NCBI RefSeq assembly: GCF_000004075.3 | Contig: NW_022279559.1 | Coordinates: 248,001 to 312,000 of the forward strand | Length of the DNA: 64,000 bases | Source of the DNA: Cucumis sativus | Taxonomy: Eukaryota > Streptophyta > Magnoliopsida > Cucurbitales > Cucurbitaceae | Direction: 5' to 3' | Shown: piece after piece, positions 4,441-62,964 of the stretch | Position numbering within the stretch: position 1 is the stretch's first letter | Layout: each line of letters begins with the position of its first letter | Notes under the pieces: model-generated | The model's database searches: none | Told to the model about the DNA's origin: nothing | The model's input: only the letters and a program-made list of their open reading frames with translations | Translations under genes and position numbers: made by a program

Positions 4441-4469
4441 TAAGATAAATTGAATTTTGAATATTCTTC

Positions 4470-22288: not shown

Positions 22289-22496
22289 TTTATTGTTCTC
22301 GTTGTTGAAAATAATGACGAAAGAAGCACCCAACGACACATAAGGTACAACCTTTGTATAAAGAAACAACAAATTATATTGAATGAAGAAAATGAAAGGG
22401 AATTTAGATTTTCCTTTCTAAAATGTTAATTAATCAAATCATTTATAGTTGATCCCACCATTTTCCAGCTGTCAACTTTAAATTCCTGGTCAATTA

Positions 22497-23019
22497 TCAA
22501 GCGCCTAGTTTGGACTTGAGTTTTTCTGCAGTACAAACACATAAAAAATCAAAATAACTCACACAAGAAAACAAAAAAAGATTAAAAGAAATAAAAGTTG
22601 GAAGAAATAAACAACTAAATTTAATTTTCGTTAAATTTTGACACATGAAATTTTTGCCTCGCAACTAAAACTGACCACACACAATAAAATTAACTATTGT
22701 CTTGATATAACAAAAAAATAAAAAAAAAACCATTTCTCCAGAGATTGAAGACAATACCAACAACTTCATTTTTCATGCAATCTTTATCACATATAGGATC
22801 ACACAAATCGTTAGCAACGCCTTTTGTCGTGCATGTTTTCTTGCACGTTTCTACACATGATTTGTATTGAGGCTCTAGATTGGATATTTCGTTAAACAAA
22901 GTATTAGATTTCCTCTCAATCTCAGCATCCCTTTCAGCGGTCATTTGTGCCTTAGAGAATTGCAGTGATCCCACCACAACAATGGACATAAAGAAAACAA
23001 TCGTAATGGTTTTTGCCAT
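22497..23019 (-). CDS. Ole e 6-like small cysteine-rich secreted protein, copy 1 (two exons)
   Basis: Exon 1 is 23019-22731 and proposed exon 2 is 22525-22497, giving 105 residues. Residues 1-24 are a signal peptide with likely cut after SKA. The mature part has six cysteines spaced C-x3-C-x3-C-x9-C-x3-C-x3-C (CVETCKKTC...CDPICDKDC), the helical-hairpin pattern of the Ole e 6 pollen-protein family; members are small, secreted and pollen-expressed, of unknown biochemical role. Reading straight on from exon 1 enters a poly-T stretch and ends after QDNS. A GT at the poly-T edge and an acceptor CTGCAG at 22526 instead join in phase to a last exon ending in KLKSKLGA, which I prefer. This copy has Gln at residue 25 where all others have His. 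A TATA-like box lies 77-88 bases upstream of the ATG. Family call from cysteine spacing is good; the 3' exon is inferred. Confidence 0.8.
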
Positions 23020-23095
23020 TTTTTAGTTTTATCTTTTAGTAATTAAGCCTACTTTTTTCCCTTATGGCTTTATCGTATGAGAAAACGAGGGAAGA

Positions 23096-23107
23096 CCATT
23101 TTATAGC
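23096..23107 (-). promoter_or_regulatory. TATA box of Ole e 6-like copy 1
   Basis: On the minus strand GCTATAAAATGG lies 77 bases upstream of the ATG. It is conserved exactly upstream of the other copies (29317-29328, 35537-35548, 52943-52954, 59160-59171), so all five copies keep the same core promoter. Confidence 0.7.
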
Positions 23108-24552
23108 AATTTTCGTTGTTAAATTTAGATCATTGAGCGAAAAGTAGGTTTTTATCTCTCTATAAATATTTGTAACAAGTGGTGAATATTTGTTTGTTCT
23201 CTAAAAACCAGTTTTTGTTCCTTAATTAACACGTGAATAGAGGAAGAAATGGTAACGATAGCAAATAAAATGTCGGTGTTGACTAAATATGGTGTCTCAA
23301 TTTAAAGGAGATCAATCAAAATAATGAAAACATATGTAGCTTAGATCGAGTGTGTAAACTCAAAGGTAAGGTTGACATTAATTTTATGGTTTCACGAACA
23401 AATAATTGATGTGGATAAATTAGCTTTACCAAACAATAAAATTATACTAATTATTTCGAAGCAGTCTTAATTATGTTGTAAAAAAACAGAAAAGAAAGAA
23501 AGAAAGAAAAAAGGCGTGGTTTAATAGAGAGTGCAACGAGTCAATTATATAGAATTTAAACACCCATGACAAAAATAATCATAAACATACCTCAAACCCC
23601 TATTTATTGAAGGCATTAATATGATTTAAATTTGACACAAAATAAAATACAAAAAAGTATCATTCCTCTTCTCAGCACTTCAAACACTCAACACACATAC
23701 ACACATATAGGCTGCAACATATAATTATTAACACAAAAACCCACAAACATTGTTTTATTTAAAAAGATAACTTTGGTTTTCAAGGAGCGACACCATGAAG
23801 CTTAGTTTATATCGGTCCCAATACAATGGACATCAATAATCGTGGCTTCTTTCGGTTTGAAGTCAATGAGTTTTAAGCAAATTTGGCAAATTAACTTGGA
23901 TTTGAATTTTATAGCGATATCAAATTCTTTTAGAATATCATCCCCTAAAATCATGACTAACATAAATTCAATATTTTCAAATTATTTATAGTCATCAATA
24001 TTTATTTTATGAGTTGAATTGAAAATTTGCGTTGAAATATCTCCAAATTTTGAATTTAGAATTATATTCATCCCTAAAATCGTGCATTTAACATAATAAC
24101 AACTTGAAATTAAGATTTTTATGGGACGTTGTTTTTTTAATTACATTAATATTTTATTTTATTTTCATTTGGCAGGATATTTCTGGGTTTGCCTACGACT
24201 TTCTTTTACGGTTGAGTTGCTTTTCTTTTACTGTTATTATTTAGCGTTATGTGTCATGGCACTACAACGTGTGAAGACTACGTTCGATGGAAGATGGATC
24301 GGATCTTTCCAATATATTGACTACCACGTGGTTGATGTAAATGTTCCATGTTCATCTTCGTATTAAGAATTTAAACAATGCATTCAAGGTAGAATTTTTC
24401 CATCTTCAGATCTTTCTGTATATCGGTTGACTCTTTATTTAGTACGGATGCAACAATTCAAACCTTGGCTTGTTCGAATTGTTGAAGAAATAGACATGTA
24501 TTGGCTTAAATATGTTGGTTTTTTCGAATTTTTCCAATAATGATTTAGTGGT

Positions 24553-25761
24553 TGTCGCCACGTGCCCGAGATGACGTGGAGCGACCGATGTCCTCAAAAG
24601 AGTTAGTGTTTTTTTTTAAAAAAAAAACAGTCGCCACCAATCTTTTTTACGGTGTGATTGGACATCAAAATAAAGTAAACAATTTTAAAAATATGGTCTG
24701 CGTAAAATAGAGATGAGTTCAGGAGTCATTTGTGTGTGAGGAAGGTATTAGCACCCCACAACACCCATTTAGAAAACGGTGGGCAAATTTCAAATCTCGA
24801 ATTGAAAATAATTTTTTATTTATTTTAAAACTAATGTCTTATTTTACCCCTCATTACTCCAATATTTAAGCAATGATCTCATAAAATAAGTGGAATAATA
24901 TTCCCTTAATTAGTCGGTATATTGAAGGAAACTTCTCACCTTAAGAAAAAGAAAAATTATTACAATTTCTCAAAGTATATCATGGGCTAGTTTTCGAATA
25001 AAGATTTTTTTTTTAAATATTGATTAAATCCATTTTTTCTTGAGATCAAATTTCAGACTCCCAAAGATATTGATCCCTCACCTTAAGAATTCTAGGAAAT
25101 CGGACTCCAAAATTTACTAGATTCCTTCTTAGTATTTTTCTGTTAGCGAAATAAAAGTGTGTTGCTAAAAAAATTGATTAGGATGACTTATGAAGTATAA
25201 ATTTATATTTTAAACTTTTTTCTAAAAATAAATTAAAAATGATAGTTTCAAAGTAAAAATTTATAAACGGCTAAAGAAGAAAATTTAAGAAATGATTCAA
25301 AATTAGGTCAATAGGAAATAATGCGCAATGAAATCAAATGTATTATACAACGAATTAAGCAAGTAAGATAAGATTTTGTTTTTTAAAAAAATATTGGGAA
25401 TCAAATCTTGGACTCCCAAAGAAACGATTCTCTCACCTCAAGAATATTGAAATAACGAATTCCAGATAATTTTAATTGCATCGTCGAATTTCTTTTAGAA
25501 TGGTAAAATGTAAAGATAAATATGATGTAAGAAAAAAGAACAATTAACTGATATAAAATACCGTGGCAATATTGGTAAGCATAAAAGAAATATTCATGAA
25601 TTTAATATTACATGATAATAAATATTGTGCATGCAAGAAAAATATGTTAAAATAAATAAGAAAATAAATAAAAACCATCACCAACCAAAAAAGGATAGAA
25701 GAAAGAAAGGAAAGTTTTTAAAAAAAAATTAAAAATGATAGTTTCAAAGTAAAAATTTATT
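24553..25761 (-). mobile_element. Antisense Tat/Ogre-type LTR relic in unit 1
   Basis: Read on the minus strand, 24780-24553 follows the order of the 3' end of the intact LTR at 38835-41012: GGGTGTTGTGGGGTGCTAA, ACCTTCC, ACACACAAATGACTCC, CAATCACACC, GGTGGCGACT, a GTCGCTCC block and a final GACA. Many differences show it is much older than the insertion in unit 3. The right limit is uncertain: a 33-bp direct repeat (ATTAAAAATGATAGTTTCAA...) near 25230 and 25728 and related half-repeats suggest internal duplication. The LTR 5' start was not found, so the relic is truncated. Confidence 0.6.
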
Positions 25762-28509
25762 AAAACTGTCAAGTATAACAAAACTGCAGGGGTCAAGTAA
25801 GGTTGTTTTTGTAGTAGTGCCATTACATTTTAATGTTAGATTTGAATTTTGGAAGAGGTCAAGCTGCTGTCTAGCCCGCTCGAATTGAAATAGTGTTTGA
25901 GAAAGCTTTGGATATATTTTGTTGAGTTTTTGCAAGTACGTAAGGTTGTATTTAATCCCTATCAATTGTTGGTTTCAAATTGTGGATGCTCAATTTGTTT
26001 TGGATGTTAGGGTTGAGTTTCAAGGGACTAAAAACCATATTGTCCTACGGTTTAAAAGCGTAAATTTATGGTGCCTTCAATTGTGATACTTAATTGGAGT
26101 TGGAAGTGACTTTTCGACTTAAGGTTGGCTTAAGTTGCGGGTACCCCCATTGTGTAAAAATTTTGTATTTGAAGGCTTGAGGGATGTAGGATAAAATCTA
26201 TGCTAAAAATAAGGCATCTTGGGAGTAGTTCAATTTGAGGAGTGGAGGATCAGGGTCACTGAAACATAAAATAGATTGAGTTGATATTATAGAACGCTTT
26301 GGGGATAGTTATGTCATGATCTGAACATGTGAGGATAACTTAGTGGCCTCATAAATCATTGTTTTCCTATCAAACTGAAGTAGGGAAAGCTTATGATCCT
26401 GGAGAATTTAGTCGTTGACTGGGAGTGGGTTATTTTCAAGTATTTTCTTATTAATCTATGTATGCTATTATAGTATGCCATGATTTCAAAAAATTCCAAT
26501 ATGAGTGTTTCTTGAACTACATGTTAGAAATAATTTTAAAATATGACTTTTGGTTTCCATGTACTATTATATTTTGGAGTGAACCCGAACTTATTAATCA
26601 TGATTTAAATGACAACTGGTTTAAAAGGATACCCCTTGATCTGTAATTAAACTTGGATGGTTTGAATGGCCTCTTCTAAAAGTATGTGTCTGATCTTTCA
26701 GGACTGAAAACGACTTTACGAAAATGTATTTCTGACCATGATTGACTTTTAAACATGAAATATGTGATCTTAATGAATGTTGGTGATTTACCCATAAGTT
26801 ATGCAAATGTGTTTTGGTAGCGCCACACCTATGGTTGTTAGGGGATTTCAAGGCTGAAAGAGGTCGTGGCCAGAGATTCAGGAGCCTGAGAATAGGTGAG
26901 GACGTGGATGAAGGATTGTGATTGGCTTCTAGCCTAGCTCAACCCACATGATGGATGGCTCTATGTGCACATAGGAGCGTAGATATGGCGGTTGCTACTG
27001 CGGTAGGTACTAAGTATGCATGAGCTCAGTTTGACCACGTGTTTTCCTGTCGATATGGATCGCGTGTGACCTATTCTCGACCGTGTATTTAGTATTCTAT
27101 CATGCTTGGATTGGATGCAGGTTGCTACTGTGGCAGATACTAAATATGCGTGAGCTTAGTCTAGTCGCGTGTTTATTTGTGGATATGGATATCGTGTGAG
27201 CTATTATCGGTCGTGTATTTAGTATTCTACCATGGTTGGTTGGATGGATGTCGCTATTGTGGCAAGTACTAAATGTACTCGAGCTTGTTTTGCCACGTGA
27301 TTTTTCTTGATCGTTTGCGAGCTATTATTATCTCGACCGTATATTTAGGCGCTCTGCTATGGCCGACCCTCATATGGTACTGGTTTGTTGGCAAATACTT
27401 GCGATTTATCGTAATATGTGATAGTGACGTTTCAATTATTAATTCATTATCGATTCCTTATTTAAACAGTTGTTAGAGTATGTTTACGAGCTTTAATTCT
27501 AAAAGAAATAGAGAAAAACAGTTTCAATGTATATACTTAAGTTTTATATATATTGCAGCATGGGGTGGTTAGAAGTAGCGATTGTAACATTATGGCATGT
27601 ATTTGAGAGATCTCTTAGTGGACTGTAATTCCTCTGTAACTAAATTCCTTGTTTGGATATAAACTCTTATTGAGACTCTAGACTAGCTTGGATGAGTGTG
27701 TATGAGACGCACTCAATGCGGTTATGAGTCTGAAGATTATAATTAAGTATAGAATTCTCTTTTAAACTCTTTTATCACTTTCTCTACCTTCAATGTCAAA
27801 CCACTCACTTTCTCTCTCATTCCTCTCTATTTTTCCCATTCACCATCAGTATATACCCACAAACAAGCTCTAATTTACAGTGTTAAAATAATTTAATTTT
27901 GATTAATGAATTCATTTTAAAACAAAAACATGAAAATCAAATCTAAAATATAAACAAACCTCTGCTCCTTCATTGTCCGCCATTAACTCATCTTCTTCTA
28001 AATTCCTCTTAGCATTTGATCCTAATATATTATTGAAGAGATGTCTTGTTTGATGATACATTTTTTTTGCAAAACCCCCATTGAATAAACTAATGAATTC
28101 TTAACCCTACCTGTTCAATTTTTTCTAAATTTCTCCCTTCATATATTCCTCACCAATTTCCTAATTTTCTCAACCCATCTCCTCCTCTCCATTTTCTCTT
28201 CTTTTTTTTTCCCATCGAAACACAATTTTTCTCTTGACAATCTGAAATACCAATTCAAAATAAACTTATCTCATAATTGTAATTATAAAAAAAAGCAATA
28301 AAACATATCTATAACCACAAACTTCATCTCTTTTATAATATATCAAAAACTATCGAGGGAGATTGACCAAACACACATGTGACAAAACTGCTCGCAACTT
28401 GAATAATAATGTGATATATTCACAAAATTTCTTCTACACGGTAGGATTATATGATAAATGTAAAACGCATAAATAATTATGTGAATAAACACAAAAGGCG
28501 TAAATAAAC
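25762..28509. other. Non-genic remainder of unit 1
   Basis: No gene is supported. 25762-27600 is less AT-rich than its surroundings and reads like decayed retroelement DNA. 27755-27870 is the CT-rich block shared with the left flank of the array. On the minus strand 28061-27960 is an open stretch of 34 codons starting with ATG and ending at a good donor (GAG/GTTTGT), possibly a captured exon fragment. The rest is AT-rich spacer. Confidence 0.4.
26991..27365. repeat. Triplicated block of about 130 bp in unit 1
   Basis: Three diverged copies begin at 26991, 27121 and 27250, each with GTTGCTACTGTGGCAGATAC-like, CGCGTGTTTT-like and TCGACCGTGTATTTAGTATT-like segments. Equivalent blocks lie at 33211-33585, 50616-50990 and 56839-57213. 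Unit 5 is cut before this point. The style suggests part of an old LTR or other retroelement, but I cannot assign it. Confidence 0.7.
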
Positions 28510-28717
28510 TTTATTGATCTCGTTGTTGAAAATAATGACGAAAGAAGCACCCAACGACACATAAGGTAGAACCTTTGTATAAAGAAACAACAAATTATAT
28601 TGAATGAAGAAAATGAAAGGGAATTTAGATTTTCCTTTCTAAAATGTTAATTAATCAAATCATTTATAGTTGATCCCACCATTTTCCAGCTGTCAACTTT
28701 AAATTCCTGGTCAATTA

Positions 28718-29240
28718 TCAAGCGCCTAGTTTGGACTTGAGTTTTTCTGCAGTACAAACACATAAAAAATCAAAATAACTCACACAAGAAAACAAAAAAA
28801 GATTAAAAGAAATAAAAGTTGGAAGAAATAAACAACTAAATTTAATTTTCGTTAAATTTTGACACATGAAATTTTTGCCTCGCAACTAAAACTGACCACA
28901 CACAATAAAATTAACTATTGTCTTGATATAACAAAAAAAAAAAAAAAAAACCATTTCTCCAGAGATTGAAGACAATACCAACAACTTCATTTTTCATGCA
29001 ATCTTTATCACATATAGGATCACACAAATCGTTAGCAACGCCTTTTGTCGTGCATGTTTTCTTGCACGTTTCTACACATGATTTGTATTGAGGCTCTAGA
29101 TTGGATATTTCGTTAAACAAAGTATTAGATTTCCTCTCAATCTCAGCATCCCTTTCAGCGGTCATGTGTGCCTTAGAGAATTGCAGTGATCCCACCACAA
29201 CAATGGACATAAAGAAAACAATCGTAATGGTTTTTGCCAT
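28718..29240 (-). CDS. Ole e 6-like secreted protein, copy 2
   Basis: Exon 1 29240-28952, proposed exon 2 28746-28718. It differs from copy 1 in the encoded protein only at residue 25 (His in place of Gln), next to the predicted signal-peptide cut. The A run just inside the intron is 18 bases here. Splice sites, the 29-nt last exon and the TATA box are unchanged, so this copy is expected to be functional. Confidence 0.8.
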
Positions 29241-30774
29241 TTTTTAGTTTTATCTTTTAGTAATTAAGCCTACTTTTTTCCCTTATGGCTTTATCGTATG
29301 AGAAAACGAGGGAAGACCATTTTATAGCAATTTTCGTTGTTAAATTTAGATCATTGAGCGAAAAGTAGGTTTTTATCTCTCTATAAATATTTGTAACAAG
29401 TGGTGAATATTTGTTTGTTCTCTAAAAACCAGTTTTTGTTCCTTAATTAACACGTGAATAGAGGAAGAAATGGTAACGATAGCAAATAAAATGTCGGTGT
29501 TGACTAAATATGGTGTCTCAATTTAAAGGAGATCAATCAAAATAATGAAAACATATGTAGCTTAGATCGAGTGTGTAAACTCAAAGGTAAGGTTGACATT
29601 AATTTTATGGTTTCACGAACAAATAATTGATGTGGATAAATTAGCTTTACCAAACAATAAAATTATACTAATTATTTCGAAGCAGTCTTAATTATGTTGT
29701 AAAAAAACAGAAAAGAAAGAAAGAAAGAAAAAAGGCGTGGTTTAATAGAGAGTGCAACGAGTCAATTATATAGAATTTAAACACCCATGACAAAAATAAT
29801 CATAAACATACCTCAAACCCCCTATTTATTGAAGGCATTAATATGATTTAAATTTGACACAAAATAAAATACAAAAAAGTATCATTCCTCTTCTCAGCAC
29901 TTCAAACACTCAACACACATACACACATATAGGCTGCAACATATAATTATTAACACAAAAACCCACAAACATTGTTTTATTTAAAAAGATAACTTTGGTT
30001 TTCAAGGAGCGACACCATGAAGCTTAGTTTATATCGGTCCCAATACAATGGACATCAATAATCGTGGCTTCTTTCGGTTTGAAGTCAATGAGTTTTAAGC
30101 AAATTTGGCAAATTAACTTGGATTTGAATTTTATAGCGATATCAAATTCTTTTAGAATATCATCCCCTAAAATCATGACTAACATAAATTCAATATTTTC
30201 AAATTATTTATAGTCATCAATATTTATTTTATGAGTTGAATTGAAAATTTGCGTTGAAATATCTCCAAATTTTGAATTTAGAATTATATTCATCCCTAAA
30301 ATCGTGCATTTAACATAATAACAACTTGAAATTAAGATTTTTATGGGACGTTGTTTTTTTAATTACATTAATATTTAATTTTATTTTCATTTGGCAGGAT
30401 ATTTCTGGGTTTGCCTACGACTTTCTTTTACGGTTGAGTTGCTTTTCTTTTACTGTTATCATTTAGTGTTATGTGTCATGGCACTACAACGTGTGAAGAC
30501 TACGTTCGATGGAAGATGGATTGGAATTTTCCAATATATTGACTACCACGTGGTTGATGTAAATGTTCCATGTTCATCTTCGTATTAAGAATTTATACAA
30601 TGCATTCAAGGTAGACTTTTCCAATCTTCACATCTTTCTGTATATCGGTTGACTCTTTATTTAGTACGGATGCAACAATTCAAACCTTGGCTTGTTGGGA
30701 ATGTTGAAGAAATAGACCTGTATTGGCTTAAATATGTTGGTTTTTTCAAATTTTTCCAATAATGATTTAGTGGT

Positions 30775-31981
30775 TGTCGCCACGTGCCCGAGATGACGTG
30801 GAGCGACCGATGTCCTCAAAAGAGTTAGTGTTTTTTTAAAAAAGAAAAACAGTCGCCACCAATCTTTTTTACGGTGTGATTGGACATCAAAATAAAGTAA
30901 ACAGTTTTAAAAATATGGTCTGCGAAAAATAGAGATGAGTTCGGGAGTCATTTGTGTGTGAGGAAGGTATTAACACCCCACAACACCCATTTAGAAAACG
31001 GTGGGTAAATTTCAAATCTCGAATTGAAAATAATTTTTTATTTATTTAAAACTAATGTCTTATTTTACCCCTCATTACTCCAATATTTAAGCAATGATCT
31101 CATAAAATAAGTCGAATAATATTCCCTTAATTAGTCGGTATATTGAAGGAAACTTCTCACCTTAAGAAAAAGAAAAATTATTACAATTTCTCAAAGTATA
31201 TCATGGGCTAGTCTTCGAATAAAGATTTTTTTTAAAATATTGATTAAATCCATTTTTTCTTGAGATCAAATTTCAGACTCCCAAAGATATTGATCCCTCA
31301 CCTTAAGAATTATAGGAAATCGGACTCCCAAATTTCCTAGATTCCTTCATAGTATTTTTCTGTTAGCGAAATAAAAGTGTGTTGCTAAAAAAATTGATTA
31401 GCATGACTTATGAAGTATAAATTTATATTTTAAACTTTTTTCTAAAAATAAATTAAAAAGGATAGTTTCAAAGTAAAAATTTATAAACGGCTAAAGAAGA
31501 AAATTTAAGAAATGATTCAAAATTAGGTCAATAGGAAATAATGCGCAATGAAATCAAATGTATTATACAACGAATTAAGCAAGTAAGATAAGATTTTGTT
31601 TTTTAAAAAAATATTGGGAATCAAATCTTGGACTCCCAAAGAAACGATTCCCTCACCTCAAGAATTTAGAAATAACGAATTCCAGATATTTTTAATTGCA
31701 TCGTCGAATTTCTTTTAGAATGGTAAAATGTAAAGATAAATATGATGTAAGAAAAAAGAACAATTAACTGATATAAAATACCGTGGCAATATTGGAAAGC
31801 ATAAAAGAAATATTCATGAATTTAATATTACATGATAATAAATATTGTGCATGCAAGAAAAATATGTTAACATAAATAAGAAAAAAAATAAAAACCCTCA
31901 CCAACCAAAAAAGGATAGAAGAAAGAAAGGAAAGTTTTTTTAAAAAAATTAAAAATGATAGTTTCAAAGTAAAAATTTATT
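30775..31981 (-). mobile_element. Antisense LTR relic in unit 2
   Basis: The counterpart of 24553-25761, with the same order of LTR-end motifs on the minus strand and the same internal direct repeat. It was clearly present before the unit was multiplied. Confidence 0.55.
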
Positions 31982-34936
31982 AAAACTGTCAAGTATAACA
32001 AAACTGCAGGGGTCAAGTAAGGTTGTTTTTGTAGTAGTGCCATTACATTTTAATGTCAAATTTGAATTTTGGAAGAGGTCAAGCCGCTGTCTAGCCCACT
32101 TGAATTGAAATAGTGTTTGAGAAAGCTTTGGATCAATTTTGTTGAGATTTTGCAAGTACGTAAGATTGTATTTAATCCCTATCAATTGTTGGTTTCAAAT
32201 TGTGGATGCTCAATTTGTTTTGGATGTTAGGGTTGAGTTTCAAGGGACTAAAAACCATATTGTCCTACGGTTTAAAAGCGTAAATTTATGGCGCCTTCAA
32301 TTGTGATACTTAATTGGAGTTGGAAGTGACTTTTCGACTTAAGGTTGGCTTAAGTTGCGGGTACCCCCATTGTGTAAAAATTTTGTATTTGAAGGCTTGA
32401 GGGATGTAGGATAAAATCTATGCTAAACATAAGGCATCTTGGGAGTAGTTCAATTTGAGGAGTGGAGGATCAGGGTCACTGAAACATAAAATAGCTTGAG
32501 TTGATATTATAGAACGCTTTGGGGATAGTTATGTCATGATCTGAACATGTGAGGATAACTTAGTGGCCTCATAAATCATTGTTTTCATATCAATCTGAAG
32601 TAGGGAAAGCTTATGATCGTGGAGAATATAGTCGTTGACTGGGAGTGGGTTATTTTCAAGTATTTTCTTATTAATCTATGTATGCTATTATAATATGCCA
32701 TGATTTCAAAAAATTCCAATATGAGTGTTTCTTGAACTACCTGTTAGAAATAATTTTAAAATATGACTTTTGGTTTCCATGTACTCTTATATTTTGGAGC
32801 GAACCCGAACTTATTAATCATAATTTGAATGACAACTGGTTTAAAAGGATACCCCTTGATCTGTAATTAAACTTGGATGGTTTGAATGGCCTCTTCTAAA
32901 AGTATGTGTCTGATCTTTCAGGACTGAAAACAACTTTACGAAAATGTATTTGTGACCATGATTGACTTTTAAACATGAAATATGTGATCTTAATGAATGT
33001 TGGTGATTTACCCATAAGTTATGCAAATGTGTTTTGGTAGCGCCACACCTATGGTTGTTAGGGGATTTCAAGGCTGAAAGAGGTCGTGGCCAGAGATTCA
33101 GGAGCCTGAGAATAGGTGAGGACGTGGATGAAGGATTGTGATTGGCTTCTAGCCTAGCTCAACCCACATGATGGATGGCTCTATGTGCACATAGGAGCGT
33201 AGATATGGGGGTTGCTACTACGGTAGGTACTAAGTATGCATGAGCTCAGTTTGACCACGTGTTTTCCTGTCGATATGGATCGCGTGTGAACTATTCTCGA
33301 CCGTGTATTTAGTATTCTATCATGCTTGGATTGGATGCAGGTTGCTACTGTGGCAGATACTAAATATGCGTGAGCTTAGTCTAGTCGCGTGTTTATTTGT
33401 GGATATGGATATCGTGTGAGCTATTATCGGTCGTGTATTTAGTATTCTACCATGGGTAGTTGGATGGATGTCGCTATTGTGGCAAGTACTAAATGTACTC
33501 GAGCTTGTTTTGCCACGTGACTTTTCTTGATCGTTTGCGAGCTATTATTATCTCGACCGTATATTTAGGCGCTCTGCTATGGCCGACCCTCATATGGTAC
33601 TGGTTTGTTGGCAAATACTTGCGATTTATCGTAATATGTGATAGTGACGTTTCAATTATTAATTCATTATCGATTCCTTATTTAAACAGTTGTTAGAGTA
33701 TGTTTACGAGCTTTAATTCTAAAAGAAATAGAGAAAAACAGTTTCAATGTATATACTTAAGTTTTATATATATTGGAGCATGGGGTGGTTAGAAGTAGCG
33801 ATTGTAACATTATGGCATGTATTTGAGAGATCTCTTAGTGGACTGTAATTCCTCTGTAACTAAATTCCTTGTTTGGATATAAACTCTTATTGAGACTCTA
33901 GACTAGCTTGGATGAGTGTGTATGAGACGCACTCAATGCGGTTATGAGTCTGAAGATTATAATTAAGTATAGAATTCTCTTTTAAACTCTTTTATCACTT
34001 TCTCTACCTTCAATGTCAAACCACTCACTTTCTCTCTCATTCCTCTCTATTTTTCCCATTCACCATCAGTATATACCCACAAACAAGCTCTAATTTACAG
34101 TGTTAAAATAATTTAATTTTGATTAATGAATTCATTTTAAAAGAAAAACATGAAAATCAAATCTAAAATATAAACAAACCTCTGCTCCTTCATTGTCCGC
34201 CATTAACTCATCTTCTTCTAAATTCCTCTTAGCATTTGATCCTAATATATTATTGAAGAGATGTCTTGTTTGATGATACATTTTTTTACAAAACCCCCAA
34301 TAAATAAACTAATGAATTCTTAACGCTACCTGTTCAATTTTTTCTAAATTTCTCCCTTCATATATTCCTCACCAATTTCCTAATTTTCTCAACCCATCTC
34401 CTCCTCTCCATTTTCTCTTCTTTTTTTTTCCCATCGAAACACAATTTTTCTCTTGACAATCTGAAATACCAATTCAAAATAAACTTATCTCATAATTGTA
34501 ATTATAAAAAAAAGCAATAAAACATATCTATAACCACAAACTTCATCTCTTTTATAATATATCAAAAACTATCGAGGGAGATTGACCAAACACACATGTG
34601 ACAAAACTGCTCGCAACTTTAATAATAATGTGATATATTCACAAAATTTCTTCTACACGGTAGGATTATATGATAAATGTAAAACGCATAAATAATTATG
34701 TGAATAAACACAAAAGGCGTAAATAAACTTTATTGATCTCGTTGTTGAAAATAATGACGAAAGAAGCACCCAACGACACATAAGGTACAACCTTTGTATA
34801 AAGAAACAACAAATTATATTGAATGAAGAAAATGAAAGGGAATTTAGATTTTCCTTTCTAAAATGTTAATTAATCAAATCATTTATAGTTGATCCCACCA
34901 TTTTCCAGCTGTCAACTTTAAATTCCTGGTCAATTA

Positions 34937-35460
34937 TCAAGCGCCTAGTTTGGACTTGAGTTTTTCTGCAGTACAAACACATAAAAAATCAAAAATCTCA
35001 CACAAGAAAACAAAAAAAGATTAAAAGAAATAAAAGTTGGAAGAAATAAACAACTAAATTTAATTTTCGTTAAATTTTGACACATGAAATTTTTGCCTCG
35101 CAACTAAAACTGACCACACACAATAAAATTAGCTATTGTCTTGATATAACAAAAAAAAAAAAAAAAAAAACCATTTCTCCAGAGATTGAAGACAATACCA
35201 ACAACTTCATTTTTCATGCAATCTTTATCACATATAGGATCACACAAATCGTTAGCAACGCCTTTTGTCGTGCATGTTTTCTTGCACGTTTCTACACATG
35301 ATTTGTATTGAGGCTCTAGATTGGATATTTCGTTAAACAAAGTATTAGATTTCCTCTCAATCTCAGCATCCCTTTCAGCGGTCATGTGTGCCTTAGAGAA
35401 TTGCAGTGATCCCACCACAACAATGGACATAAAGAAAACAATCGTAATGGTTTTTGCCAT
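34937..35460 (-). CDS. Ole e 6-like secreted protein, copy 3
   Basis: Exon 1 35460-35172, proposed exon 2 34965-34937. The spliced product is identical to copy 2. Read without splicing, the longer A run (about 20 bases) shifts the frame so that the tail becomes an unrelated FFFFFFCYIKT... sequence ending near 35104, a sign that this part is intron. Confidence 0.8.
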
Positions 35461-38201: not shown

Positions 38202-38834
38202 AAAACTGTCAAGTATAACAAAACTGCAGGGGTCAAGTAAGGTTGTTTTTGTAGTAGTGCCATTACATTTTAATGTCAGATTTGAATTTTGGAAGAGGTC
38301 AAGCCGCTGTCTAGCCCACTTGAATTGAAATAGTGTTTGAGAAAGCTTTGGATCAATTTTGTTGAGATTTAGCAAGTACGTAAGGTTGTATTTAATCCCT
38401 ATCAATTGTTGGTTTCAAACTGTGGATGCTCAATTTGTTTTGGATGTTAGGGTTGAGTTTCAAGGGACTAAAAACCATATTGTCCCACGGTTTAAAAGCG
38501 TAAATTTATGGCGCCTTCAATTGTGATACTTAATTGGAGTTGGAAGTGACTTTTCGACTTAAGGTTGGCTTAAGTTGCGGGTACCCCCATTGTGTAAAAA
38601 TTTTGTATTTGAAGGCTTGAGGGATGTAGGATAAAATCTATGCTAAAAATAAGGCATCTTGGGAGTAGTTCAATTTGAGGAGTGGAGGATCAAGGTCACT
38701 GAAACATAAAATAGCTTGAGTTCATATTATAGAACGCTTTGGGGATAGTTATGTCATGATCTGAACATGTGAGGATAACTTAGTGGCCTGATAAATCATT
38801 GTTTTCATATCAATCTGAAGTAGGGAAAGCTTAT

Positions 38835-41012: not shown

Positions 41013-41015
41013 GCT

Positions 41016-45110: not shown

Positions 45111-45119
45111 AGCCATGGT

Positions 45120-47757: not shown

Positions 47758-47830
47758 CTCTAAAAATAAAAAAGATCGACCAATACTTTATCTATTTCCT
47801 TTGTCCACCTTTAAATATTTACAGGATAGA

Positions 47831-47845
47831 CAAAGGGGGGCAAAC
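47831..47845 (+). promoter_or_regulatory. Polypurine tract
   Basis: CAAAGGGGGGCAAAC lies directly before the 3' LTR start TGTAGATACC, the standard place for plus-strand priming. Confidence 0.8.
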
Positions 47846-52342: not shown

Positions 52343-52866
52343 TCAAGCGCCTAGTTTGGACTTGAGTTTTTCTGCAGTACAAACACATAAAAAATCAAAA
52401 ATCTCACACAAGAAAACAAAAAAAGATTAAAAGAAATAAAAGTTGGAAGAAATAAACAACTAAATTTAATTTTCGTTAAATTTTGACACATGAAATTTTT
52501 GCCTCGCAACTAAAACTGACCACACACAATAAAATTAACTATTGTCTTGATATAACAAAAAAAAAAAAAAAAAAAACCATTTCTCCAGAGATTGAAGACA
52601 ATACCAACAACTTCATTTTTCATGCAATCTTTATCACATATAGGATCACACAAATCGTTAGCAACGCCTTTTGTCGTGCATGTTTTCTTGCACGTTTCTA
52701 CACATGATTTGTATTGAGGCTCTAGATTGGATATTTCGTTAAACAAAGTATTAGATTTCCTCTCAATCTCAGCATCCCTTTCAGCGGTCATGTGTGCCTT
52801 AGAGAATTGCAGTGATCCCACCACAACAATGGACATAAAGAAAACAATCGTAATGGTTTTTGCCAT
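52343..52866 (-). CDS. Ole e 6-like secreted protein, copy 4
   Basis: Exon 1 52866-52578, proposed exon 2 52371-52343. The spliced protein is identical to copies 2 and 3. Unspliced, it would share the aberrant long tail of copy 3, because the A run is of similar length. Confidence 0.8.
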
Positions 52867-54400
52867 TTTTTAGTTTTATCTTTTAGTAATTAAGCCTACT
52901 TTTTTCCCTTATGGCTTTATCGTATGAGAAAACGAGGGAAGACCATTTTATAGCAATTTTCGTTGTTAAATTTAGATCATTGAGCGAAAAGTAGGTTTTT
53001 ATCTCTCTATAAATATTTGTAACAAGTGGTGAATATTTGTTTGTTCTCTAAAAACCAGTTTTTGTTCCTTAATTAACACGTGAATAGAGGAAGAAATGGT
53101 AACGATAGCAAATAAAATGTCGGTGTTGACTAAATATGGTGTCTCAATTTAAAGGAGATCAATCAAAATAATGAAAACATATGTAGCTTAGATCGAGTGT
53201 GTAAACTCAAAGGTAAGGTTGACATTAATTTTATGGTTTCACGAACAAATAATTGATGTGGATAAATTAGCTTTACCAAACAATAAAATTATACTAATTA
53301 TTTCGAAGCAGTCTTAATTATGTTGTAAAAAAACAGAAAAGAAAGAAAGAAAGAAAAAAGGCGTGGTTTAATAGAGAGTGCAACGAGTCAATTATATAGA
53401 ATTTAAACACCCATGACAAAAATAATCATAAACATACCTCAAACCCCCTATTTATTGAAGGCATTAATATGATTTAAATTTGACACAAAATAAAATACAA
53501 AAAAGTATCATTCCTCTTCTCAGCACTTCAAACACTCAACACACATACACACATATAGGCTGCAACATATAATTATTAACACAAAAACCCACAAACATTG
53601 TTTTATTTAAAAAGATAACTTTGGTTTTCAAGGAGCGACACCATGAAGCTTAGTTTATATCGGTCCCAATACAATGGACATCAATAATCGTGGCTTCTTT
53701 CGGTTTGAAGTCAATGAGTTTTAAGCAAATTTGGCAAATTAACTTGGATTTGAATTTTATAGCGATATCAAATTCTTTTAGAATATCATCCCCTAAAATC
53801 ATGACTAACATAAATTCAATATTTTCAAATTATTTATAGTCATCAATATTTATTTTATGAGTTGAATTGAAAATTTGCGTTGAAATATCTCCAAATTTTG
53901 AATTTAGAATTATATTCATCCCTAAAATCGTGCATTTAACATAATAACAACTTGAAATTAAGATTTTTATGGGACGTTGTTTTTTTAATTACATTAATAT
54001 TTAATTTTATTTTCATTTGGCAGGATATTTCTGGGTTTGCCTACGACTTTCTTTTACGGTTGAGTTGCTTTTCTTTTACTGTTATCATTTAGCGTTATGT
54101 GTCATGGCACTACAACGTGTGAAGACTACGTTCGATGGAAGATGGATTGGAATTTTCCAATATATTGACTACCACGTGGTTGATGTAAATGTTCCATGTT
54201 CATCTTCGTATTAAGAATTTATACAATGCATTCAAGGTAGACTTTTCCAATCTTCAGATCTTTCTGTATATCGGTTGACTCTTTATTTAGTACGGATGCA
54301 ACAATTCAAACCTTGGCTTGTTCGAATTGTTGAAGAAATAGACATGTATTGGCTTAAATATGTTGGTTTTTTCGAATTTTTCCAATAATGATTTAGTGGT

Positions 54401-55609
54401 TGTCGCCACGTGCCCGAGATGACGCGGAGCGACCGATGTCCTCAAAAGAGTTAGTGTTTTTTTAAAAAAAAAAAACAGTCGCCACCAATCTTTTTTACGG
54501 TGTGATTGGACATCAAAATAAAGTAAACAGTTTTAAAAATATGGTCTGCGAAAAATAGAGATGAGTTCGGGAGTCATTTGTGTGTGAGGAAGGTATTAGC
54601 ACCCCACAACACCCATTTAGAAAACGGTTGGCAAATTTCAAATCTCGAATTGAAAATAATTTTTTATTTATTTTAAAACTAATGTCTTATTTTACCCCTC
54701 ATTACTCCAATATTTAAGCAATGATCTCATAAAATAAGTGGAATAATATTCCCTTAATTAGTCGGTATATTGAAGGAAACTTCTCACCTTAAGAAAAAGA
54801 AAAATTATTACAATTTCTCAAAGTATATCATGGGCTAGTCTTCGAATAAAGATTTTTTTTAAAATATTGATTAAATCCATTTTTTTCTTGAGATCAAATT
54901 TCAGACTCCCAAAGATATTGATCCCTCACCTTAAGAATTCTAGGAAATCGGACTCCCAAATTTCCTAGATTCCTTCATAGTATTTTTCTGTTAGCGAAAT
55001 AAAAGTGTGTTGCTAAAAAAATTGATTAGGATGACTTATGAAGTATAAATTTATATTTTAAACTTTTTTCTAAAAATAAATTAAAAATGATAGTTTCAAA
55101 GTAAAAATTTATAAACGGCTAAAGAAGAAAATTTAAGAAATGATTCAAAATTAGGTCAATAGGAAATAATGCGCAATGAAATCAAATGTATTATACAACG
55201 AATTAAGCAAGTAAGATAAGATTTTGTTTTTTAAAAAAATATTGGGAATCAAATCTTGGACTCCCAAAGAAACGATTCCCTCACCTCAAGAATTTAGAAA
55301 TAACGAATTCCAGATATTTTTAATTGCATCGTCGAATTTCTTTTAGAATGGTAAAATGTAAAGATAAATATGATGTAAGAAAAAAGAACAATTAACTGAT
55401 ATAAAATACCGTGGCAATATTGGTAAGCATAAAAGAAATATTCATGAATTTAATATTACATGATAATAAATATTGTGCATGCAAGAAAAATATGTTAAAA
55501 TAAATAAGAAAATAAATAAAAACCATCACCAACCAAAAAAGGATAGAAGAAAGAAAGGAAAGTTTTTAAAAAAAAATTAAAAATGATAGTTTCAAAGTAA
55601 AAATTTATT
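54401..55609 (-). mobile_element. Antisense LTR relic in unit 4
   Basis: Counterpart of 24553-25761, differing by single bases (GACGCGGAGCGACC where other units have GACGTGGAGCGACC). Confidence 0.55.
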
Positions 55610-58562
55610 AAAACTGTCAAGTATAACAAAACTGCAGGGGTCAAGTAAGGTTGTTTTTGTAGTAGTGCCATTACATTTTAATGTCAGATTTGAATTTTGG
55701 AAGAGGTCAAGCCGCTGTCTAGCCCACTTGAATTGAAATAGTGTTTGAGAAAGCTTTGGATCAATTTTGTTGAGATTTTGCAAGTACGTAAGATTGTATT
55801 TAATCCCTATCAATTGTTGGTTTCAAATTGTGGATGCTCAATTTGTTTTGGATGTTAGGGTTGAGTTTCAAGGGACTAAAAACCATATTGTCCTACGGTT
55901 TAAAAGCGTAAATTTATGGCGCCTTCAATTGTGATACTTAATTGGAGTTGGAAGTGACTTTTCGACTTAAGGTTGGCTTAAGTTGCGGGTACCCCCATTG
56001 TGTAAAAATTTTGTATTTGAAGGCTTGAGGGATGTAGGATAAAATCTATGCTAAAAATAAGGCATCTTGGGAGTAGTTCAATTTGAGGAGTGGAGGATCA
56101 GGGTCACTGAAACATAAAATAGCTTGAGTTGATATTATAGAACGCTTTGGGGATAGTTATGTCATGATCTGAACATGTGAGGATAACTTAGTGGCCTGAT
56201 AAATCATTGTTTTCATATCAATCTGAAGTAGGGAAAGCTTATGATCGTGGAGAATTTAGTCGTTGACTGGGAGTGGGTTATTTTCAAGTATTTTCTTATT
56301 AATCTATGTATGCTATTATAGTATGCCATGATTTCAAAAAATTCCAATATGAGTGTTTCTTGAACTACATGTTAGAAATAATTTTAAAATATGACTTTTG
56401 GTTTCCATGTACTCTTATATTTTGGAGCGAACCCGAACTTATTAATCATGATTTAAATGACAACTGGTTTAAAAGGATACCCCTTGATCTGTAATTAAAC
56501 TTGGATGGTTTGAATGGCCTCTTCTAAAAGTATGTGTCTGATCTTTCAGGACTGAAAACGACTTTACGAAAATGTATTTCTGACCATGATTGACTTTTAA
56601 ACATGAAATATGTGATCTTAATGAATGTTGGTGATTTACCCATAAGTTATGCAAATGTGTTTTGGTAGCGCCACACCTATGGTTGTTAGGGGATTTCAAG
56701 GCTGAAAGAGGTCGTGGCCAGAGATTCAGGAGCCTGAGAATAGGTGAGGACGTGGATGAAGGATTGTGATTGGCTTCTAGCCTAGCTCAACCCACATGAT
56801 GGATGGCTCTATGTGCACATAGGAGCGTAGATATGGGGGTTGCTACTACGGTAGGTACTAAGTATGCATGAGCTCAGTTTGACCACGTGTTTTCCTGTCG
56901 ATATGGATCGCGTGTGAACTATTCTCGACCGTGTATTTAGTATTCTATCATGCTTGGATTGGATGCAGGTTGCTACTGTGGCAGATACTAAATATGCGTG
57001 AGCTTAGTCTAGTCGCGTGTTTATTTGTGGATATGGATATCGTGTGAGCTATTATCGGTCGTGTATTTAGTATTCTACCATGGTTGGTTGGATGGATGTC
57101 GCTATTGTGGCAAGTACTAAATGTACTCGAGCTTGTTTTGCCACGTGATTTTTCTTGATCGTTTGCGAGCTATTATTATCTCGACCGTATATTTAGGCGC
57201 TCTGCTATGGCCGACCCTCATATGGTACTGGTTTGTTGGCAAATACTTGCGATTTATCGTAATATGTGATAGTGACGTTTCAATTATTAATTCATTATCG
57301 ATTCCTTATTTAAACAGTTGTTAGAGTATGTTTACGAGCTTTAATTCTAAAAGAAATAGAGAAAAACAGTTTCAATGTATATACTTAAGTTTTATATATA
57401 TTGCAGCATGGGGTGGTTAGAAGTAGCGATTGTAAAATTATGGCATGTATTTGAGAGATCTCTTAGTGGACTGTAATTCCTCTGTAACTAAATTCCTTGT
57501 TTGGATATAAACTCTTATTGAGACTCTAGACTAGCTTGGATGAGTGTGTATGAGACGCACTCAATGCGGTTATGAGTCTGAAGATTATAATTAAGTATAG
57601 AATTCTCTTTTAAACTCTTTTATCACTTTCTCTACCTTCAATGTCAAACCACTCACTTTCTCTCTCATTCCTCTCTATTTTTCCCATTCACCATCAGTAT
57701 ATACCCACAAACAAGCTCTAATTTACAGTGTTAAAATAATTTAATTTTGATTAATGAATTCATTTTAAAACAAAAACATGAAAATCAAATCTAAAATATA
57801 AACAAACCTCTGCTCCTTCATTGTCCGCCATTAACTCATCTTCTTCTAAATTCCTCTTAGCATTTGATCCTAATATATTATTGAAGAGATGTCTTGTTTG
57901 ATGATACATTTTTTTGCAAAACCCCCATAAATAAACTAATGAATTCTTAACCCTACCTGTTCAATTTTTTCTAAATTTCTCCCTTCATATATTCCTCACC
58001 AATTTCCTAATTTTCTCAACCCATCTCCTCCTCTCCATTTTCTCTTCTTTTTTTTTCCATCCAAACACAATTTTTCTCTTGACAATCTGAAATACCAATT
58101 CAAAATAAACTTATCTCATAATTGTAATTATAAAAAAAAGCAATAAAACATATCTATAACCACAAACTTCATCTCTTTTATAATATATCAAAAACTACCG
58201 AGGGAGATTGACCAAACACACATGTGACAAAACTGCTCGCAACTTGAATAATAATGTGATATATTCACAAAATTTCTTCTACACGGTAGGATTATATGAT
58301 AAATGTAAAACGCATAAATAATTATGTGAATAAACACAAAAGGCGTAAATAAACTTTATTGATCTCGTTGTTGAAAATAATGACGAAAGAAGCACCCAAC
58401 GACACATAAGGTAGAACCTTTGTATAAAGAAACAACAAATTATATTGAATGAAGAAAATGAAAGGGAATTTAGATTTTCCTTTCTAAAATGTTAATTAAT
58501 CAAATCATTTATAGTTGATCCCACCATTTTCCAGCTGTCAACTTTAAATTCCTGGTCAATTA

Positions 58563-59083
58563 TCAAGCGCCTAGTTTGGACTTGAGTTTTTCTGCAGTAC
58601 AAACACATAAAAAATCAAAATCTCACACAAGAAAACAAAAAAAGATTAAAAGAAATAAAAGTTGGAAGAAATAAACAACTAAATTTAATTTTCGTTAAAT
58701 TTTGACACATGAAATTTTTGCCTCGCAACTAAAACTGACCACACACAATAAAATTAACTATTGTCTTGATATAACAAAAAAAAAAAAAAAAAACCATTTC
58801 TCCAGAGATTGAAGACAATACCAACAACTTCATTTTTCATGCAATCTTTATCACATATAGGATCACACAAATCGTTAGCAACGCCTTTTGTCGTGCATGT
58901 TTTCTTGCACGTTTCTACACATGATTTGTATTGAGGCTCTAGATTGGATATTTCGTTAAACAAAGTATTAGATTTCCTCTCAATCTCAGCATCCCTTTCA
59001 GCGGTCATGTGTGCCTTAGAGAATTGCAGTGATCCCACCACAACAATGGACATAAAGAAAACAATCGTAATGGTTTTTGCCAT
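58563..59083 (-). CDS. Ole e 6-like secreted protein, copy 5
   Basis: Exon 1 59083-58795, proposed exon 2 58591-58563. The spliced product is the same as copies 2-4. The intron is a few bases shorter (ATCAAAATCTCAC where copy 1 has ATCAAAATAACTCAC). The promoter and start are intact although the unit is truncated far downstream of the gene. Confidence 0.8.
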
Positions 59084-60617
59084 TTTTTAGTTTTATCTTT
59101 TAGTAATTAAGCCTACTTTTTTCCCTTATGGCTTTATCGTATGAGAAAACGAGGGAAGACCATTTTATAGCAATTTTCGTTGTTAAATTTAGATCATTGA
59201 GCGAAAAGTAGGTTTTTATCTCTCTATAAATATTTGTAACAAGTGGTGAATATTTGTTTGTTCTCTAAAAACCAGTTTTTGTTCCTTAATTAACACGTGA
59301 ATAGAGGAAGAAATGGTAACGATAGCAAATAAAATGTCGGTGTTGACTAAATATGGTGTCTCAATTTAAAGGAGATCAATCAAAATAATGAAAACATATG
59401 TAGCTTAGATCGAGTGTGTAAACTCAAAGGTAAGGTTGACATTAATTTTATGGTTTCACGAACAAATAATTGATGTGGATAAATTAGCTTTACCAAACAA
59501 TAAAATTATACTAATTATTTCGAAGCAGTCTTAATTATGTTGTAAAAAAACAGAAAAGAAAGAAAGAAAGAAAAAAGGCGTGGTTTAATAGAGAGTGCAA
59601 CGAGTCAATTATATAGAATTTAAACACCCATGACAAAAATAATCATAAACATACCTCAAACCCCCTATTTATTGAAGGCATTAATATGATTTAAATTTGA
59701 CACAAAATAAAATACAAAAAAGTATCATTCCTCTTCTCAGCACTTCAAACACTCAACACACATACACACATATAGGCTGCAACATATAATTATTAACACA
59801 AAAACCCACAAACATTGTTTTATTTAAAAAGATAACTTTGGTTTTCAAGGAGCGACACCATGAAGCTTAGTTTATATCGGTCCCAATACAATGGACATCA
59901 ATAATCGTGGCTTCTTTCGGTTTGAAGTCAATGAGTTTTAAGCAAATTTGGCAAATTAACTTGGATTTGAATTTTATAGCGATATCAAATTCTTTTAGAA
60001 TATCATCCCCTAAAATCATGACTAACATAAATTCAATATTTTCAAATTATTTATAGTCATCAATATTTATTTTATGAGTTGAATTGAAAATTTGCGTTGA
60101 AATATCTCCAAATTTTCAATTTAGAATTATATCCATCCCTAAAATCGTGCATTTAACATAATAACAACTTGAAATTAAGATTTTTATGGGACGTTGTTTT
60201 TTTAATTACATTAATATTTAATTTTATTTTCATTTGGCAGGATATTTCTGGGTTTGCCTACGACTTTCTTTTACGGTTGAGTTGCTTTTCTTTTACTGTT
60301 ATCATTTAGCGTTATGTTTCATGGCACTACAACGTGTGAAGACTACGTTCGATGGAAGATGGATTGGAATTTTCCAATATATTGACTACCACGTGGTTGA
60401 TGTAAATGTTCCATGTTCATCTTCGTATTAAGAATTTATACAATGCATTCAAGGTAGACTTTTCCAATCTTCAGATCTTTCTGTATATCGGTTGACTCTT
60501 TATTTAGTACGGATGCAACAATTCAAACCTTGGCTTGTTGGAATTGTTGAAGAAATAGACCTGTATTGGCTTAAATATGTTGGTTTTTTCGAATTTTTCC
60601 AATAATGATTTAGTGGT

Positions 60618-61822
60618 TGTCGCCACGTGCCCGAGATGACGTGGAGCGACCGATGTCCTCAAAAGAGTTAGTGTTTTTTTAAAAAAGAAAAACAGTCGCC
60701 ACCAATCTTTTTTACGGTGTGATTGGACATCAAAATAAAGTAAACAGTTTTAAAAATATGGTCTGCGAAAAATAGAGATGAGTTCGGGAGTCATTTGTGT
60801 GTGAGGAAGGTATTAGCACCCCACAACACCCATTTAGAAAACGGTTGGCAAATTTCAAATCTCGAATTGAAAATAATTTTTTATTTATTTTAAAACTAAT
60901 GTCTTATTTTACCCCTCATTACTCCAATATTTAAGCAATGATCTCATAAAATAAGTGAATAATATTCCCTTAATTAGTCGGTATATTGAAGGAAACTTCT
61001 CACCTTAAGAAAAAGAAAAATTATTACAATTTCTCAAAGTATATCATGGGCTAGTTTTCGAATAAAGATTTTTTTTAAAATATTGATTAAATCCATTTTT
61101 TCTTGAGATCAAATTTCAGACTCCCAAAGATAATGATCCCTCACCTTAAGAATTCTAGGAAATCGGACTCCCAAATTTCCTAGATTCCTTCATAGTATTT
61201 TTCTGTTAGCGAAATAAAAGTGTGTTGCTTAAAAAATTGATTAGGATGACTTATGAAGTATAAATTTATATTTTAAACTTTTTTCTAAAAATCAATTAAA
61301 AAGGATAGTTTCAAAGTAAAAATTTATAAACGGCTAAAGAAGAAAATTTAAGAAAGGATTCAAAATTAGGTTAATAGGAAATAATGCGCAATGAAATCAA
61401 ATGTATTATACAACGAATTAAGCAAGTAAGATAAGATTTTGTTTTTTAAAAAAATATTGGGAATCAAATCTTGGACTCCCAAAGAAACGATTCCCTCACC
61501 TCAAGAATTTAGAAATAACGAATTCCAGATATTTTTAATTGCATCGTCGAATTTCTTTTAGAATGGTAAAATGTAAAGATAAATGATGTAAGAAAAAAGA
61601 ACAATTAACTGATATAAAATACCGTGGCAATATTGGAAAGCATAAAAGAAATATTCATGAATTTAATATTACATGATAATAAATATTGTGCATGCAAGAA
61701 AAATATGTTAAAATAAATAAGAAAAAAAAATAAAAACCATCACCAACCAAAAAAGGATAGAAGAAAGAAAGGAAAGTTTTTTAAAAAAAATTAAAAATGA
61801 TAGTTTCAAAGTAAAAATTTAT
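60618..61822 (-). mobile_element. Antisense LTR relic in unit 5
   Basis: Counterpart of 24553-25761, complete in this truncated unit. Confidence 0.55.
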
Positions 61823-62964
61823 TAAAACTGTCAAGTATAACAAAACTGCAGGGGTCAAGTAAGGTTGTTTTTGTAGTAGTGCCATTACATTTTAATGTCA
61901 GATTTGAATTTTGGAAGAGGTCAAGCCGCTGTCTAGCCCACTTGAATTGAAATAGTGTTTGAGAAAGCTTTGGATCAATTTTGTTGAGATTTTGCAAGTA
62001 CGTAAGATTGTATTTAATCCCTATCAATTGTTGGTTTCAAATTGTGGATGCTCAATTTGTTTTGGATGTTAGGGTTGAGTTTCAAGGGACTAAAAACCAT
62101 ATTGTCCTACGGTTTAAAAGCGTAAATTTATGGCGCCTTCAATTGTGATACTTAATTGGAGTTGGAAGTGACTTTTCGACTTAAGGTTGGCTTAAGTTGC
62201 GGGTACCCCCATTGTGTAAAAATTTTGTATTTGAAGGCTTGAGGGATGTAGGATAAAATCTATGCTAAAAATAAGGCATCTTGGGAGTAGTTCAATTTGA
62301 GGAGTGGAGGATCAGGGTCACTGAAACATAAAATAGCTTGAGTTGATATTATAGAACGCTTTGGGGATAGTTATGTCATGATCTGAACCTGTGAGGATAA
62401 CTTAGTGGCCTCATGAATCATTGTTTTCCTATCAAACTGAAGTAGGGAAAGCTTATGATCCTGGAGAATTTAGTCGTTGACTGGGAGTGGTCTATTTTCA
62501 AGTATTTTCTTATTAATCTATGTATGCTATTATAGTATGCCATGATTTCAAAAAATTCCAATATGAGTGTTTTTGAACTACATGTTAGAAATAATTTTAA
62601 AATATGACTTTTGGTTTCCATGTACTATTATATTTTGGAGTGAACCCGAACTTATTAATCATGATTTAAATGACAACTGGTTTAAAAGGATACCCCTTGA
62701 TCTGTAATTAAACTTGGATGGTTTGAATGGCCTCTTCTAAAAGTATGTGTCTGATCTTTCAGGACTGAAAACGACTTTACGAAAATGTATTTCTGACCAT
62801 GATTGACTTTTAAACATGAAATATGTGATCTTAATCAATGTTGGTGATTTACCCATAAGTTATGCAAATGTGTTTTGGTAGCGCCACACCTATGGTTGTT
62901 AGGGGATTTCAAGGCTGAAAGAGGTCGTGGCCATAGATTCAGGAGCCTGAGAATAGGTGAGGAC

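Follow-up and report, generated by a model that had tools for sequence, protein, structure and literature searches.

Tandem and dispersed copies of an Ole e 6-like gene in cucumber, with a CACTA-type end at the unit junction

Units and gene copies of the array

The window analysed here, 64,000 nucleotides of the Cucumis sativus genome (positions 248001-312000 of contig NW_022279559.1, hereafter C57), contains a tandem array of units of about 6.22 kb, each carrying a gene for a small six-cysteine peptide resembling Ole e 6 and, at the unit junction, a terminus of the CACTA transposon type. The same block occurs singly elsewhere in the genome (226.6 Mb in 88 contigs searched). Self-comparison of the window placed the starts of the direct repeats at 22289, 28510, 34729, 52135 and 58355, bearing out the head-to-tail arrangement of 6.22-kb units proposed in a first-pass annotation of this DNA. 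The units, the insertions that split them (LTR, long terminal repeat) and the gene copies are as follows.

22289..28509, plus strand, unit 1; its left edge lies part-way into the element, at junction-based position 2689
28510..34728, plus strand, unit 2 (6219 bp), the reference for comparisons
34729..38834, plus strand, unit 3, left part
38835..50018, plus strand, Ty3-type LTR retrotransposon inside unit 3 (11.2 kb; LTRs 38835-41012 and 47846-50018)
50019..52134, plus strand, unit 3, right part
52135..58354, plus strand, unit 4
58355..62964, plus strand, unit 5, left part; the unit resumes beyond the window at C57:312889-314497
62965..64000 and past the window end, plus strand, probable solo LTR breaking unit 5 (1924 bp in all)
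22690..23019, minus strand, Ole e 6-like gene copy 1 (109 residues; H25Q)
28911..29240, minus strand, Ole e 6-like gene copy 2 (109 residues)
35104..35460, minus strand, Ole e 6-like gene copy 3 (118 residues; poly-T frame)
52510..52866, minus strand, Ole e 6-like gene copy 4 (118 residues)
58754..59083, minus strand, Ole e 6-like gene copy 5 (109 residues)

Five unit starts are indeed present in the window, as the first pass had counted, but units 3 and 5 are split by insertions and a sixth gene copy lies outside. The array does not end at 62964, where its end had been placed, because the break there is the probable solo LTR inside unit 5; it extends to C57:316316 (window-equivalent 68316), the sixth unit being partial and carrying the sixth gene copy. 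The retrotransposon in unit 3 has TG...CA ends and contains gag as well as reverse-transcriptase and integrase pieces, with only 1 bp of target repeat visible; a 129-bp tandem repeat (4.9 copies, window 47110-47748) directly precedes its 3' LTR. The insertion in unit 5 likewise has TG...CA ends, is flanked on both sides by the target repeat AGGAC and, judged by its ends alone, is probably a solo LTR.

Each unit holds one six-cysteine open reading frame (ORF) preceded by a TATA motif, as had been described. The ORF runs on the minus strand, the TATA motif lies at -86 from its ATG, and this arrangement was present in 12/12 copies found by their start in the two arms of C57 defined below (C57:70001-332000). 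Codons 1-101 are identical in copies 2-6. Thus, the reported identity of the proteins of copies 2-5 holds over the first 101 residues but not for ORF length, as a poly-T run near the gene end shifts the frame to give 109 residues in copies 1, 2 and 5 and 118 in copies 3, 4 and 6, a split that may reflect either biology or homopolymer error. The single difference attributed to copy 1, H25Q, is accompanied by a further change at codon 101.

The gene product shares with Ole e 6-like peptides a signal-peptide-like N-terminus, the cysteine spacing CX3CX3CX9CX3CX3C (read from alignments of the window copy and PDB 1ss3) and, as its best solved-structure match, 1ss3 (Ole e 6) itself, with an E-value of 1.2e-4 for the single sequence and 2.8e-9 for a four-member profile (the window copy and three paralogues of this genome); an alignment of four sequences shows no variation at any of the six cysteines. 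It differs from those peptides in a long C-terminal tail with a phenylalanine run and in its score against Ole e 6 (PF09253), the best Pfam match, which at 23.3 bits lies under the curated gathering cut-off of 27.7. Genome-wide, 6/39 PF09253 matches exceed that cut-off, all on C5 and C6. According to the accessible part of PMC8198727, Ole e 6 has six cysteines and two antiparallel helices, and its role is unknown; the same text tracks tomato family members through Fusarium infection. Excerpts of two further papers place Ole e 6-like genes among the female-flower-specific genes of squash, where they are proposed to act in recognising pollen (PMC8114506), and list one cucumber transcript named Ole e 6 in a powdery-mildew study (PMC9134894). 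The label 'pollen-type gene' used at first pass is probably just a name taken over from the family, because relatives are reported in Fusarium-challenged tomato, squash female flowers and mildew-challenged cucumber.

The CACTA-type end and the dispersed copies

A 28-base terminus recurs at the junction of the units:

25792..25819, minus strand, CACTA-type terminus at unit junction
32012..32039, minus strand, CACTA-type terminus at unit junction
38232..38259, minus strand, CACTA-type terminus at unit junction
55640..55667, minus strand, CACTA-type terminus at unit junction
61854..61881, minus strand, CACTA-type terminus at unit junction

Read inward, the terminus is CACTACTACAAAAACAACCTTACTTGAC. 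It has 98 genome matches at no more than 3 mismatches, compared with 0 for a reversed control. Transposase_21 gave 151 genome matches, with 150 of 435 candidates scored; on C1-C7, 64 ends and 139 transposase matches form 4 inward-facing pairs within 6 kb, a number reached in 4/2000 control shifts of the ends by 20-500 kb (mean, 0.52 inward pairs). We assign the terminus to the CACTA type because of its match count relative to the control and because its pairing with Transposase_21 exceeds the shifted mean. Eight same-strand termini of this type at a spacing of approximately 4.29 kb also lie at C3:19147400-19177441, apparently another head-to-tail CACTA-ended array.

The whole-unit search of the genome, in which 10 of 917 candidates were scored and which thus sets a lower bound, found the block as single copies on at least 6 chromosome-scale contigs: C1, C2, C3, C4 (near 8.57 Mb), C5 and C6. 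The first-pass annotation had recognised that an Ole e 6-like gene was amplified in tandem but missed this dispersal and the CACTA end; the arrangement is tandem, but the unit is not a plain gene duplicate.

Four of the dispersed copies end exactly at the CACTA end, a fifth begins 1 bp beyond it and the array units abut there. The copies on C1, C3 and C5 stop at the unit's own end, ...TTTTTGTAGTAGTG, their shared 3' end reading ...GTAGTAGTG. The copy at C4:8.57 Mb has a longer 3' stretch in common with C6 and, some 1 kb into the stretch that follows, arrives at this terminus as well, with a zero-mismatch match at C4:8564103; when that longer stretch was used as query, 9/46 rows ended at query positions 1031-1060, the terminus lying at 1047. 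The C2 copy begins at the base after the junction C, just past the CACTA end, which suggests that a junction already existed when this copy left. The other edges fall at different junction-based positions, namely 1342 (C5), 1616 (C3) and 1907 (C1), with 389/390 common to C6 and C4:8.57 Mb. Candidate target repeats flank the C3 copy (TTT on both sides) and the C1 copy (CTA on both sides).

The opposite edge of the unit reads CATTAC, and its inner bases have no match to the terminus. Judged by frame length, with the remaining frames not compared with Pfam, the unit appears to lack a transposase: the peptide gene, at 119 codons, is its longest stop-to-stop frame. Transposases are encoded elsewhere in the genome. 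Two further assignments were considered. Helitrons have a CTRR 3' end, unlike the shared ...GTAGTAGTG of the dispersed copies, and an array of LTR retrotransposons is disfavoured, though not completely, by the lack of a long coding frame in the unit; a scan with six primer-binding-site patterns returned only the 7-base TGGCGCC at 32289.

Two other parts of the unit have relatives in the genome:

28326..29906, strand not assigned, gene with ancestral context (~1.6 kb), 71-77% DNA identity with a second array on C4
32481..33239, strand not assigned, part of the unit matching a dispersed repeat family (71-81%)

The second array (C4:3158598-3201425) contains 7 Ole e 6-like relatives with 42-49% protein identity, 4/6 intervals between them being 6.45-6.54 kb and the other two about 7.6 kb; two more relatives are found on C67. 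Searched with the 28-base end at up to 3 mismatches, this array has no match. Since it retains the context without a CACTA-end match, the context of the gene probably predates the association with CACTA, and the family forms arrays without a CACTA end. A piecemeal copy at C3:14.53 Mb is without the gene, the counterpart of window 28755-29554 being absent, and was considered as an 'empty' element predating gene capture; deletion is likelier, because the second array identifies the sequence on either side of the missing part as ancestral surroundings of the gene.

Divergence, age and assembled versions

Relative to unit 2, substitutions over aligned sites amount to 1.35% in unit 1, 1.05% in unit 3, 0.71% in unit 4 and 0.93% in unit 5, and to 1.45% in the C1 copy, 2.4% at C4:8.57 Mb, 2.83% in C2, 3.02% in C3, 3.04% in C5 and 3.36% in C6. 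Units 1-5 and the six dispersed copies were compared in unrooted trees built from four alignments, three of which separate the array from C2, C3, C5, C6 and C4:8.57 Mb; in the gene-region tree C4:8.57 Mb falls between C1 and the rest. The C1 copy adjoins either the array or unit 1, with mixed support.

The LTRs of the unit-3 retrotransposon differ by 7 substitutions in 2161 aligned sites. With a substitution rate of 4.5e-9, given in the portion of PMC6582320 consulted, its insertion dates to about 0.36 million years ago and the divergence of the units, computed by hand and assuming no conversion, to about 0.8-1.5 million years. Because the units differ 2-4 times more than the LTRs, the expansion is older than the insertion, unless conversion has intervened. 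The amplification, which the first pass took to be very recent unless homogenisation is ongoing, is recent in a relative sense and, conversion aside, older than the retrotransposon insertion. The simplest order of events is dispersal, then tandem growth, then retrotransposon insertion.

Variation among units 1-5 is uneven, with 10 variable columns in positions 1-1830 (gene and upstream region), 94 in 1831-4500 and 14 in 4501-5700; the most variable stretch corresponds to window 30340-33009 in unit 2. C-to-T type changes at CG sites number 0/64, 14/104 and 0/72 in the same three regions, and transversions 8, 55 and 11. As transversions also differ, methylation alone is insufficient to explain the uneven divergence, which may stem from conversion or constraint.

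The dispersed copies differ from unit 2 little in the 369 bases upstream of the gene (0 differences at C4:8.57 Mb, 1 in C2, 2 in C1, 3 in C3, 1 in C5 and 5 in C6). Coding differences, in the same order, are 0, 10, 4, 10, 8 and 8 over about 300 bases including the poly-T end and 0, 5, 4, 9, 8 and 8 over the first 96 codons. Across those 96 codons in 11 copies there are 16 distinct non-synonymous changes and 1 synonymous change (one-sided binomial 0.11, not significant), or 12 and 1 without the damaged copies on C5 and C6 (binomial 0.22). Codons 1-24 are unchanged (0/17, 0.0075; 0/13 without C5 and C6, 0.024), a test picked after seeing the data, and no cysteine codon is among those changed. Copy-specific sites include codons 25, 36, 62, 64, 71 and 75. 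With two damaged copies among the 11 and no statistical significance, the non-synonymous excess serves as a lead only.

The contig that holds the window is redundant. In C57 (410 kb), positions 97823-190014 match 221860-314033 in inverted orientation at 99.84% identity, with 77 mismatches and 58 gap openings, and a run of ten Ns (C57:190015-190024) lies at the edge of the left arm. Three flank segments match C4 (2.918-3.009 Mb) and C59 at approximately 100%. Two of them are present in both C57 arms; the third, from between the arms, is found once in C57, as expected if it belongs to the right-hand contig alone. C57 is two near-identical contigs joined in inverted orientation across the gap; a real inverted duplication was rejected on the grounds that the gap falls exactly at the arm edge and that the same flanks recur on chromosome 4 and C59. 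Given these flank matches, one locus seems to have been assembled four times: twice in C57, once in C59 and once at about 2.92-3.01 Mb on C4. The assembled versions contain 6 and 6 (C57 arms), 5 (C59) and 2 (C4) gene copies, and one C57 arm has an extra partial unit without a gene. The gene copy at C59:92808-93119 has four in-frame stops although the surrounding DNA is 99% identical, which suggests uncorrected indels in C59.

Five-fold amplification, as first proposed, is thus a count that depends on the version, and the present copy number is not fixed by this contig because it is a redundant copy of the chromosome-4 locus. Should each version be a partial collapse of a single array, a path combining them could contain 7 gene copies. 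The units are nevertheless distinct, and not one unit repeated by error, because their divergence of 0.7-1.35% far exceeds the 77 mismatches over about 92 kb between the two contigs; this upholds the tandem amplification of the gene. As sequence the array exists, and it is probably present in the plant as well, with 2 to 6 gene copies depending on the version. More generally, unplaced scaffolds of this assembly may mislead on copy number, one locus possibly being counted several times.

Origin of the array and of the dispersed copies

The reading that we put at a probability of roughly 0.5 is that the Ole e 6-like gene and its promoter were carried by DNA with one recognisable CACTA end, dispersed aberrantly and then expanded in tandem on chromosome 4. 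In the proposed mobile block, dispersed repeats would surround the peptide gene, its promoter and an ancestral context of about 1.6 kb, and a CACTA (En/Spm-type) end would close one side. A CACTA transposase would have cut at this end, and the freed DNA would have reinserted with ragged other edges, that is, by aberrant, one-ended transposition. Near 2.93 Mb on chromosome 4, a partial duplication may then have grown into an array via unequal crossing-over or conversion, with the Ty3 element and the probable solo LTR presumably inserting later into single units. The main support comes from the edge that the dispersed copies and the array units have at the CACTA end. Several observations weigh against it. 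The C5 target repeat fits only with 5 bp of filler, and comparison of the C1 copy with an empty site (a diverged relative on C2) gives no clean 3-bp repeat. The CACTA end was not found for the C6 copy in the stretch read, 2 further end/Transposase_21 pairs face outward and the gene count of the array differs between assembled versions; moreover, growth of the array by crossing-over requires no transposase. In addition, no second 14-base terminus (up to 2 substitutions) was detected upstream of the C1, C2, C3 and C5 copies over the 4.5-5.6 kb read, where CACTA hexamers, for example those of C5 and C2, could be diverged partner ends. Because this second terminus was sought and not found, we class the block as gene carriage like that of Pack-CACTA and not as a CACTA element. 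As in Pack-CACTA and CACTA gene capture, treated in the available section of a review (PMC13317346), a host gene lies beside a CACTA terminus and is dispersed; that section counts CACTA copies that lie close together and carry complementary deletions of their ends among the steps of capture. The cucumber block differs in having one recognised CACTA end, a gene with its promoter region and a head-to-tail array.

The same locus could have arisen as a plain tandem cluster grown by unequal crossing-over, the old CACTA fragment being incidental and the dispersed copies ordinary segmental duplications, an account that we consider possible but doubtful. Head-to-tail units of one length, partial units at the edges and later insertions in single units are just what such clusters display, the second C4 array formed without a CACTA-end match, and a region of about 112 kb in wax gourd is reported, in the text available, to hold four Ole e 6-like genes. 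Here, by contrast, the unit is also dispersed singly with a transposon end, and segmental duplication would leave unexplained why four copies share an edge at a terminus found widely in the genome while a fifth starts 1 bp beyond. That edge also bears on the idea that circular DNA released from the array reinserted as circularly permuted copies: counted from the left edge of the array, the dispersed copies are indeed permuted, but four of them share an edge at the CACTA terminus, which reinserted circles would not produce, and this origin is therefore very improbable. A multi-copy array that is mainly an assembly artefact, the true locus being the two-copy version on chromosome 4, is less far-fetched and still improbable. 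The palindromic joining of redundant contigs across an N gap and the three different gene counts among four versions speak for it, as does the fact that the published assembly closest to this genome, according to the part of PMC6582320 seen, merged six pre-assemblies from reads with a subread N50 of 10.8 kb. Against it stand the divergence of the units relative to that of the contigs and the different insertions in units 3 and 5, which are present in both contigs. Collapse, furthermore, is a commoner error than expansion for tandem arrays of this kind.

If carriage by CACTA-ended DNA is correct, DNA with a single recognisable transposon end has spread a gene together with its promoter, and tandem multiplication followed, which bears on how small secreted-peptide families expand and vary in presence; presence of an Ole e 6 gene varies between wild and domesticated Cucurbita argyrosperma, according to the excerpt of PMC8087764. 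The stronger proposal that a lone CACTA end suffices to mobilise a complete secreted-peptide gene and promoter, seeding a diversifying peptide family, strikes us as unlikely; it builds on the preservation of the signal peptide, the cysteines and most of the promoter in the dispersed copies, and on a mature peptide that varies almost only at the amino-acid level. Among the titles and abstract openings covered, none was found to describe this array.

Outside the array, an Rfam scan of the window gave 0 matches at the gathering threshold, and pieces of a DUF630/DUF632 gene lie on the minus strand at window 845-3377. The left flank of the array holds an open and uninterrupted EIN3-like transcription factor gene (window 11948-13291), whose EIN3 DNA-binding domain scores 365 bits and whose surrounding 3-kb segment is identical in both C57 arms.

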